A stretch of DNA of 64,000 nt from Bacteroidota bacterium (GTDB lineage: Bacteria > Bacteroidota > Bacteroidia > B-17B0 > Aurantibacillaceae). Below the pieces are notes generated by a model. That model worked only from the letters and a program-made list of their open reading frames with translations, did not search any database and was not told the DNA's origin. Position numbers and translations under genes: made by a program. Shown here piece after piece: positions 53,894-57,393 of the stretch; position 1 is the first letter of the stretch; every line of letters begins with the position of its first letter. The stretch is from NCBI GenBank assembly GCA_947450025.1, contig CANFTW010000002.1, positions 1 through 64,000 of the forward strand, written 5' to 3'.

Positions 53894-54013
53894 TTATAAA
53901 TTTTATTGCAAAATAAGGGAAAAATTAAACTAAAAAAATTGATTTGTCGACTTTTATACCAAACTTTTTAGAAAAAAAAATAGTATCATCTTCACGACAG
54001 ACTTTTATCCTTT

Positions 54014-54781
54014 TTAATTCACGGTTTTAAATCTGAAAGAAAATCCAATGGATATAAAATTAGCGTAGCTTGCTTGCATTAAACCAAACCCGGAAGATAC
54101 ATCAACCATAAAATCATCTGAAATTAAATACGTTAATCCTCCATCAAATCTATTATCAACGGTAGATTGATTTTGAAAGTGTCCATAAAATTCAACATAA
54201 CCTCCAAGTTTTTCGGTTAGCTTAAAACCTGTTGTTAGAGTATAAATAAATATTTGTTCCGCCTCATCACCATCCCATTCACAACCCAAATTATACCCTA
54301 ATGAGATATTTTTTGACAAAGTGTGTTGCATTGTAAATCGAAATGATGGTGCAAAATATTTCGTATGAAAGGCAGGATGCCCAAATTTTGAGGTCGTTCA
54401 ATGTCCAATAAAAGAAGTTAAGGGAATCATTCCTTTTTCCTTACAGATGCTAGTTTTAAAACCAAACGCTATTGGTGTTACGCCTGTCACCATTGTGTTA
54501 TTTTCTTTTATAGACAAAATATCAGAGACAAGTCTAATTTCAAACTTATCATTTAATCCATATTTCAAAAGACTTGAAGGATAAGTGAATGCATTAGTTT
54601 TAGAATTAATTTTCTCTAAAGAAAATCCGTTCTCCATTTGAATATATCGATGGGGCACTATATTTGGGCATTCTGTTTTGTCTGGTCTATCAGTTTGAAT
54701 AGGATCCATTTTTTGAGCATTTAATTCATGATCATTAAATACCAGAATAAATAATAGTAAATATTGAATTACTCGAAACAC
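54014..54781 (-). pseudogene. Outer-membrane beta-barrel transporter gene split by an in-frame TGA
   Basis: Two reading frames in the same phase, 54398-54781 (127 residues from a GTG) and 54014-54331, join through 23 sense-like codons after a single TGA at 54398-54400. Read through the stop the product is continuous: ...GMIPLTSFIGH-stop-TTSKFGHPAFHTKYFAPSFR, then FTMQHTLSKNISLGYNLG. The whole is a 255-codon barrel of the 'transporter/MetA-pathway' family, with a signal peptide (VIQYLLLFILVFNDHELNAQ) and family strands (MDPIQTDRPDKTECP, VEFYGHFQNQS, FDGGLTYLISDDFMVDVSSGFG). A one-base change from TTA (Leu) would restore it. No frameshift is needed. Confidence 0.85.
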
Positions 54782-54809: not shown

Positions 54810-56675
54810 CTAAACTAACACTAAAGGAATATCTATTCTATGCCTTACACTTTCTACAGTCGTACCAAATAAAATATCTTTAAAGGTGGTGTGACCATGA
54901 GTGCCCATTACCAATAAATCACATTGATCAACCAATTTTGGAATTACTGATTTAGGGCTTCCAAAACCTAACTTAAATTCACAGTTATAGCCTTGCTCTA
55001 ATAATTGATTTTTGTAAGCTAATAAATTAGCACTATCCTCTATCCTTTCGTGATCGTTCGTTTGTTCGCCATACATCACTGCATTGGTGCTCTCCAAAAT
55101 ATGTATTAAAATGTAGTGAGCTTGCCTACCACCTAATTGAAGGGCTTTATTGATAGCTTTATTATCACTAGTGCTAAAATCAACGGTAATTGCAATAGAT
55201 GAATATGGCTTTGGTGAATCAAAACTAATTCTAGCAACGTCACCATGAAATTGAGAAGAGACATATTGTCTAGGTTTTTTAAATAAAGGTTCGAAAGTAA
55301 TATATAATAGAATCCCTAAACATACCAACATAAAAGGAATAACAAGAATCTCTATCAATAAAGCATATTCAGAATCTTGAATCCATTCATTTACTTTATT
55401 AAACAACATCTGACAATTTAAAAATACAATCACAGAAACTGCAATCCACGATGCTATTTTTTGCCAAACAGGAATAACAAATTCTCCCATCCGTTTTTTA
55501 TTACTCACAAAATGAATTAAAGGAATAATAGCAAAGCCTAATTGTAAACTAAGTATTACTTGACTGAGAACTAATAAATCACCCGTTTTATCTTCTCCTA
55601 AAAAGTAAATGGTTAAAAATGCTGGAACGATAGCTATTAAACGCGTTAACAATCTTCTTATCCATGGTTGTAATCGAAGATTTAAATAACCTTCCATAAT
55701 TACCTGCCCTGCTAATGTCCCTGTAATGGTAGAACTTTGTCCTGCGGCAATTAATGCCACCGCAAATAATAAAGGTGCTAAAGTGCTTCCTAACATCGGC
55801 GCCATGATTTTATGAGCATCTTGAATTTCAGTAACCTCAATACCAGTATTAAAAAATGTAGTAGCAGCAATGATTAAAATAGCTGCATTAACAAATAAGG
55901 CTAAATTTAAAGCTACTGCACTATCAATAATATTAAAACGAATCGCTTTTTTTATTTCTTTAGGGGTTCGCTCAAATTGACGAGTTTGAACCAAGGAAGA
56001 ATGTAAATATAAATTATGAGGCATCACAGTTGCTCCAATGATACCAATTGCAATATACAAAGCGTTTGCATTAGTAAACCCGGGGATTAAACCTTTTGAT
56101 ATCTCAATCATATCTGGTTTGGCAATCCATAATTGAATAAAAAAAGATACTCCTATAATAGCTACTAATGAAATGATAAAAGCTTCGAGTTTTTTTATCC
56201 CAGAATTTAATAAAAACAATAGCACAAAACTATCTAACACGGTAATACAGACTCCACCTAAAATAGAGATAGAAGGAAATAATAAATGTATACCAATAGC
56301 CATTCCAACCACCTCCGCTAAATCACAAGCGGCTATCGCGATTTCAGCTAAAACATATAAAAAATAGTTTATGAATTTAGAATAGTGATCCTTTGAAGCT
56401 TGAGCTAAATCTCTTCCTGACACCACACCCAATCTCACACAATGACTCTGCAATAAAAGGGCTATTAAATTACTCATTACTAACACCCAAATTAAGCTAT
56501 AACCATACTTACTGCCCCCTTCGATGTCAGTTGCCCAATTACCTGGATCCATATAACCCACACTAATCATATAAGCAGGTCCAATAAAAGCTAACAATTT
56601 TTTAAAACCGCCTTTACTAGAAGTGTTTACTGAAGCATGAACTTCATCTAATGATTTATGATTATTACTTGACAT
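54810..56675 (-). CDS. mntH: Nramp divalent-metal transporter fused to a UspA domain
   Basis: The protein has 621 residues. Residues 25-460 are an Nramp transporter: GYMDPGNWATDIEGGSKYGY (metal ligands Asp and Asn), CDLAEVVGMAIGI, GATVMPHNLYLHSSLVQTR (metal ligand Met) and about 11 helices. It should import manganese or iron with protons. Residues 485-621 are a universal stress domain: YSSIAITVDFSTSDNKAINK, then GTHGHTTFKDILFGTTVESV with the ATP-binding loop G-x-H-G-H. The domain faces the cytoplasm and may sense nucleotide. Its start overlaps mntR by 11 bases, so the two are one operon. Confidence 0.93.
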   Translation of the reverse strand: MSSNNHKSLDEVHASVNTSSKGGFKKLLAFIGPAYMISVGYMDPGNWATDIEGGSKYGYSLIWVLVMSNLIALLLQSHCVRLGVVSGRDLAQASKDHYSKFINYFLYVLAEIAIAACDLAEVVGMAIGIHLLFPSISILGGVCITVLDSFVLLFLLNSGIKKLEAFIISLVAIIGVSFFIQLWIAKPDMIEISKGLIPGFTNANALYIAIGIIGATVMPHNLYLHSSLVQTRQFERTPKEIKKAIRFNIIDSAVALNLALFVNAAILIIAATTFFNTGIEVTEIQDAHKIMAPMLGSTLAPLLFAVALIAAGQSSTITGTLAGQVIMEGYLNLRLQPWIRRLLTRLIAIVPAFLTIYFLGEDKTGDLLVLSQVILSLQLGFAIIPLIHFVSNKKRMGEFVIPVWQKIASWIAVSVIVFLNCQMLFNKVNEWIQDSEYALLIEILVIPFMLVCLGILLYITFEPLFKKPRQYVSSQFHGDVARISFDSPKPYSSIAITVDFSTSDNKAINKALQLGGRQAHYILIHILESTNAVMYGEQTNDHERIEDSANLLAYKNQLLEQGYNCEFKLGFGSPKSVIPKLVDQCDLLVMGTHGHTTFKDILFGTTVESVRHRIDIPLVLV

Positions 56676-57339
56676 GGTGAGGATGTACTAAAATATGAGA
56701 GGCGACTTGTTCGCTCAAAAATTCGTGATGTTTATGATTAATTTTTATTTTCAAAGATCCATCATAATCATTAATCGATTCTATATCGATCGTATTTCCT
56801 AAACTTAAATTTAAAGTGGTTAAGTATTTTAAAAATTTGGTTTCGTGATTACTAACCCCCGAAAAAATATATGTTTGCTTTTTATTTGCTGTACTTAATG
56901 AGATTGAATTCACTACGCGCATTTTACCATCTTTATCTGGAATCGCATCTCCATGGGGATCAAATTTTGGATTATCTAAAAAATCATCCAATTTTAAAAT
57001 TAACTCCTTACTATCAATATGCTCTAATTGCTCTGCAATATCATGCACCTCGTCCCATTTAAATTTTAATTTTTTCACTAAAAAAACTTCCCATAAACGG
57101 TGCTTTCTAATAATATCTAAAGCAATGGCTTTACCTTTTGCTGTTAAAGAAACTCCGTAATATTTTTTATAGCTAATGAGCTTTTTATCTGATAAACGCT
57201 TAATCATGTCCGTTACCGTAGCAGGCTGCATCGACAAATGAATCGCTATATCATTTGTTGAAACGGCTTTCTCCTTAAGCTTTTCTTCTAATTTATAGAT
57301 GGCTTTTATATAGTTTTCTTCCGTAAACGAAGTTTTCAT
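56665..57339 (-). CDS. mntR: MntR/DtxR-family metal-dependent repressor
   Basis: This 224-residue regulator has a winged helix-turn-helix (VSTNDIAIHLSMQPATVTDMIKRL), a metal-binding dimer domain (IIRKHRLWEVFLV, EVHDIAEQLEHI, DPHGDAIP) and a C-terminal SH3/FeoA-like region (about 150-224). It represses the manganese/iron importer when metal is plentiful. It is the first gene of the mntR-mntH operon. The upstream region holds a promoter 4 bases before the ATG and a perfect palindrome next to the -33 box, which fits self-regulation. Confidence 0.92.
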   Translation of the reverse strand: MKTSFTEENYIKAIYKLEEKLKEKAVSTNDIAIHLSMQPATVTDMIKRLSDKKLISYKKYYGVSLTAKGKAIALDIIRKHRLWEVFLVKKLKFKWDEVHDIAEQLEHIDSKELILKLDDFLDNPKFDPHGDAIPDKDGKMRVVNSISLSTANKKQTYIFSGVSNHETKFLKYLTTLNLSLGNTIDIESINDYDGSLKIKINHKHHEFLSEQVASHILVHPHHVK

Positions 57340-57375: not shown

Positions 57376-57393
57376 TTTTAGACTAATCTAAAA
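57376..57393. promoter_or_regulatory. Candidate MntR operator palindrome
   Basis: TTTTAGA-CTAA-TCTAAAA is a perfect inverted repeat with 7-base arms, 2 bases upstream of the -33 TTG of mntR. Its TTAG-n-CTAA core is close to DtxR-family sites (TTAGGTTAGGCTAACCTAA type). Binding by MntR is inferred. Confidence 0.6.

Follow-up and report, generated by a model that had tools for sequence, protein, structure and literature searches.

The outer-membrane beta-barrel gene that follows mntH in the window (the whole analysed stretch of 64,000 nucleotides) is most probably a dispensable gene, the last in a DtxR-regulated metal operon, that was recently inactivated when codon 128 changed to the nonsense codon TGA. 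The initial annotation had offered three options for this stop, namely a fresh nonsense mutation, a sequencing error and a stop that is sometimes read through; the list is sound, and the nonsense mutation is the best supported of the three. The stop has been seen in a single genome and is an ordinary single-gene lesion. The features concerned are collected in Table 1.

One barrel frame with one internal stop

On the minus strand, positions 54781-54014 form a single frame of 255 codons that opens with GTG and closes with a TAA, and the sole internal stop of this frame is the TGA at 54400-54398, so that the two halves share one frame and are separated by this codon alone, as had been proposed. 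The homologue search in GTDB r220, with one genome per species, gave 70 loci. Seventy stop-free homologues, mostly of 36-55% identity, align with the joined translation over both halves and across the junction, and the sequence is therefore one gene with one stop. The first possible restart past the TGA is the ATG at 54331, and the codons between them number 22 rather than the 23 counted at first; their residues (TTSKFGHPAFHTKYFAPSFRFT) align with the barrel family, in keeping with their earlier description as natural barrel sequence. The stop column holds I in 33, L in 24, V in 6, M, A and Y in 2 each and F in 1 of the 70 stop-free relatives, and the leucine suggested for this position would fit, because 63 of them have I, L or V there. 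No second copy of the barrel was found in the same genome. Other candidates for a same-frame interruption in the window turned out to be pairs of different genes or were uninformative.

Table 1. Positions of the barrel halves, the stop and the associated elements (window coordinates unless a contig is given)
Feature	Position	Strand	Evidence or remark
Internal TGA (codon 128 of the barrel frame) in the context TGA-A	54398..54400	-	family column I/L/V in 63/70; inside predicted strand 121-130
Barrel gene, N-terminal half, with GTG start, signal peptide and first strands	54401..54781	-	aligned to 70 relatives
C-terminal half of the barrel gene, terminal TAA	54014..54397	-	PF13557 match, E=5e-15
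mntH, coding for an Nramp-Usp fusion transporter	54810..56675	-	PF01566 E=1e-126, PF00582 E=4e-16
Gene of a metal-dependent DtxR/MntR-type repressor that carries an FeoA-like domain; overlaps the mntH start	56665..57339	-	PF01325, PF02742, PF04023
Probable operator (TTTTAGACTAATCTAAAA, palindromic) of the dtxR-mntH-barrel operon	57376..57393	.	just before dtxR; only exact match in the window to the 18-base pattern
Far edge of the empty site: the 58 bases preceding the glycosyltransferase gene	53900..53957	-	blastn 85-91% to L083, L085, L086, L087, L089, L090
tRNA-Trp(CCA)	G000:C10:112006-112076 (L130 1500-1571)		only one found in the window's genome
Loci with the exact palindrome			L006, L034, L036-L038, L040, L041, L043-L045, L047, L049, L052, L054, L056-L061, L063, L065-L070, L073

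By profile matches and a predicted model, the two halves are parts of one outer-membrane barrel of 12-13 strands and of the PF13557/COG4313 kind. The C half alone scores 56.7 bits against PF13557 (gathering score, used as the cut-off, 22), and intact relatives cover the whole profile with 88-99 bits. The AlphaFold2 model of the read-through product, built on 47 aligned sequences, is an outer-membrane barrel with a signal helix and 12-13 strands (mean pLDDT 88.7), and residue 128 sits within its strand 121-130. According to the proposed course of events, a once intact outer-membrane channel gene would have ended the DtxR-regulated operon dtxR, mntH-usp, barrel, until a nonsense change to TGA inactivated it. 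Translation would then stop inside strand 121-130, and since the stop falls within a strand, the product ending there could not close the barrel: its 127 residues would form roughly five strands and a piece of the following one, lacking half the strands together with the C-terminal one. The C-terminal strand of outer-membrane barrels is the one recognised by the BAM machinery. The truncated product should be degraded in the periplasm, and the stop would thereby disable the barrel.

The lack of further decay had been taken as a sign that the mutation is recent, and this holds loosely. The frame contains no second stop or frameshift, but the window keeps 50 of the 54 columns with 90% conservation or more and has the other four replaced (Q35K, I85V, T86S, H210N), which is more than in most core relatives, where nearly all are kept; the profile score of the window's barrel is a mid-range one for the family. 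With neutral drift, about 4.3% of changes create stops, and the chance of meeting no further stop falls from 0.07 at 0.08 changes per site to 0.04 at 0.10. The lack of a further stop in the frame does no more than bound the neutral drift since the loss, probably to less than about 0.09 changes per site; on the whole the barrel would have been lost fairly recently. The high conservation of the barrel would be compatible, too, with a protein that is still in use.

The metal operon and the range of the barrel gene

The barrel gene starts 28 bases after the end of mntH. Among the 82 located barrel homologues (one contig being entered twice, as L046 and L102), 33 have mntH and/or dtxR in the fetched flanks, 31 of them divergent and 2 co-directional, and the arrangement in the window is of the co-directional type. 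The exact TTTAG-N6-CTAAA is found at most 250 bp upstream of the barrel in 28 of the 33 linked loci, where about one occurrence would be expected even with one mismatch allowed, compared with 2 of the 48 unlinked loci; at divergent loci it lies in the spacer that separates the barrel gene from mntH or dtxR. Within the genus the palindrome precedes dtxR at all 7 checked loci that keep this gene, and the exact form is present at none of the 8 checked loci that do not. About half of the genus lacks the DtxR-type repressor that lies between lptB and mntH; at the dtxR-less loci (L083, L086, L089-L092, L094, L099) mntH comes directly after lptB, with no exact palindrome.

An operator-like palindrome and the linkage to dtxR/mntH, by which an MntR regulon is recognised, are kept across lineages. 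TTTAG-N6-CTAAA is the probable DtxR/MntR operator, and it probably marks the barrel as a member of the metal regulon in Bacteroidota. Because of the mntH/dtxR linkage and the palindrome, the barrel is probably an outer-membrane channel for the metal of MntH, Mn or Fe, that in its intact form would pass Mn2+ or Fe2+ across the outer membrane for this transporter. No description of an mntH-linked barrel family was found in the titles and abstracts that literature searches listed. In the tree, the window's copy stands (support 97/93) next to 25 copies, most of which have no link to mntH; its branch of 0.65 is similar to those of several neighbours, and the genes beside the closest, mntH-unlinked relatives have no common theme.

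The barrel is dispensable in the genus, being absent from all 19 other genomes, several of which have an empty site; homologues of mntH are present in all 19. In G003, G004, G006, G010, G016 and G019 about 70-85 bases separate mntH from the glycosyltransferase gene behind it, and the 58 bases that precede the latter come close after mntH in related species. Barrel remnants behind mntH were found in no other genus member by tblastn or blastn, the site being empty or occupied by unrelated DNA, and inspection of the edges of the barrel site showed nothing obvious that pointed to mobile-element insertion. Some barrel homologue, most often a distant one, occurs in 11 of 67 further genomes of the wider family. 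The sole barrel of the genus was gained by transfer or lost in all other members, either being compatible with the data; the GC content of the gene (31.6%) and of its neighbours (32.0%) may be called equal. An in-frame stop at other positions was also seen in three other Bacteroidota relatives (TGA at L019:4040, TAA at L039:4208 and TAA at L069:4059), of which that in L019 may be an alignment artefact from wrongly aligned upstream sequence near the start. Such single stops suggest repeated loss of the barrel.

Alternatives to a nonsense change

The next candidate, although an unlikely one, is an assembly or sequencing error that leaves the organism's own gene intact. The lesion is a single base in one 28-contig assembly, with no second lesion and with both barrel halves conserved, as such an error would leave it. 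However, substitution errors in an assembly consensus are uncommon, several conserved residues are changed as well, and the gene, being absent from all other genus members, is under weak constraint.

As to the decoding of the stop, UGA is a normal working stop in the window's genome, since RF2 scores over the cut-off (with one internal TGA, usual for prfB), none of the 28 tRNAs found has a UCA anticodon, and selB is below the cut-off; on the same grounds selenocysteine and a UGA-as-Trp code were rejected. The features of the tRNA-Trp favour some read-through, in which the sole detected tRNA-Trp(CCA) would read a part of the UGA codons as Trp and give low amounts of the full-length barrel with Trp at 128. 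In this tRNA, which carries A24, A27 and A59 (in the analysis's own numbering), the top position of the anticodon stem, A27 x C43, is unpaired, leaving a 4-bp stem that is also present in all 15 other genus genomes whose tRNA-Trp was read. The unpaired position itself differs across the 16 genomes (L146-L165), being A x C, T x C or C x T. Elsewhere in the family the stem has 5 bp in G020, G021 and G024 and 4 bp in G023, G060, G061 and G089, and outside the family it has 5 bp in all of nine-plus genomes. The 4-bp-stem tRNA-Trp, when overexpressed in E. coli, raised UGA read-through about 2.5-fold (PMC13092985), and a triple mutant tRNA-Trp (24A, 27A, 59A) active in vitro is cited in the same work. 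The A that follows the TGA makes a leaky context, and the E. coli tRNA-Trp misreads UGA most when A follows (PMC5289835). Moreover, UGA ends 13 of 292 ORFs of at least 200 codons in 464 kb of the same genome (the window and L176-L195), that is 4.5%, against 16.8% for UAG and against a share of 26.7% that composition gives to TGA among stop triplets, and selection often acts on the in-frame stops of bacterial genes (PMC7918605).

However, the 4-bp form makes up 8.9% of bacterial tRNA-Trp genes, and standard-code genomes with this form alone still use UGA as a stop (PMC13092985). Three 4-bp-stem members of the family use UGA at 12-17% and a higher-GC member of the genus at 25%; taken together, the samples from other genus and family members span 5-25% and show no clean dependence on stem length, and a link of the 4-bp tRNA-Trp to UGA avoidance inside the family was rejected for the same lack of a clean pattern. 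No other TGA-interrupted gene was seen in the 464 kb. A codon-score scan of this sample found no TGA interruption clear of overlapping ORFs, and because it missed the barrel itself, the 19 TGA-ended ORFs of at least 100 codons were judged by eye: the barrel is the only one that stays open 50 codons past the stop, and the other 18 meet another stop within 50 codons and look like natural ends. Trp occurs in none of the 70 stop-free relatives at the stop column, and a stop at column 128 occurs in none of the relatives examined, the gene being absent in the 19 other genus genomes; a stop conserved between species with selection downstream, the mark of programmed read-through, was not found. The evidence of the tRNA and context, set against the uninterrupted other TGA-ended ORFs, leaves read-through improbable. 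The broader proposal, that UGA is natively leaky in the genus owing to the 4-bp-stem tRNA-Trp (with A24 and A59) and that the stop is an expression damper rather than a knock-out, deserves still less credence.

That the ATG 22 codons past the stop re-initiates a C half working beside a short N-terminal protein is scarcely credible, as 22 conserved codons would be left untranslated, the C half would have neither a signal peptide nor a closed barrel, and a split at this position is seen in no close relative. Relatives made naturally as two proteins would have refuted the initial annotation, but each close relative is one protein, and a natural split gene was rejected.

Comparison with known systems

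The barrel interrupted by a nonsense change resembles the nonsense-interrupted or candidate read-through genes of PMC7918605 in having one in-frame stop in an otherwise conserved frame; however, that work requires a stop common to two or more species, and the barrel stop occurs in one genome. The tRNA-Trp corresponds to the 4-bp anticodon-stem type (PMC13092985) by its unpaired 27/43, its 7-nt loop and CCA anticodon, in all genus genomes read, but its A24 places it outside the strict "Blastocrithidia-like" set, and UGA is not reassigned. The genus also provides natural genomes in which the 4-bp tRNA-Trp alone was found, native UGA leakiness being a question that PMC13092985 leaves open, and this genus-wide tRNA-Trp variant is worth following together with the operon link of the barrel family.

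Among solved structures, the best Foldseek match of the model is the amyloid secretion channel FapF (PDB 5o65/5o68, PMC5557850; E=3e-9, TM 0.65-0.72), although the identity is about 10% and nothing amyloid-related was seen beside the barrel gene. The COG4313 channel 4rl8 stands lower in the list (E=2e-6, TM about 0.65). The COG4313/PF13557 channels (PDB 4rl8, PMC4493636) share with the barrel a Pfam match over the gathering score and a similar barrel size; however, the gene is interrupted here, and the known members are implicated in the uptake of hydrophobic molecules, whereas the barrel subfamily adjoins an Nramp transporter and a metal-type repressor. The Bradyrhizobium MnoP, an outer-membrane Mn2+ channel (described in PMC9334652), has the job proposed here, that of Mn entry for an inner-membrane importer, a functional analogy with no sequence or fold comparison behind it. 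By its linkage to mntH, a DtxR-type repressor and the palindrome, the barrel is a candidate outer-membrane manganese (or iron) channel of Bacteroidota.
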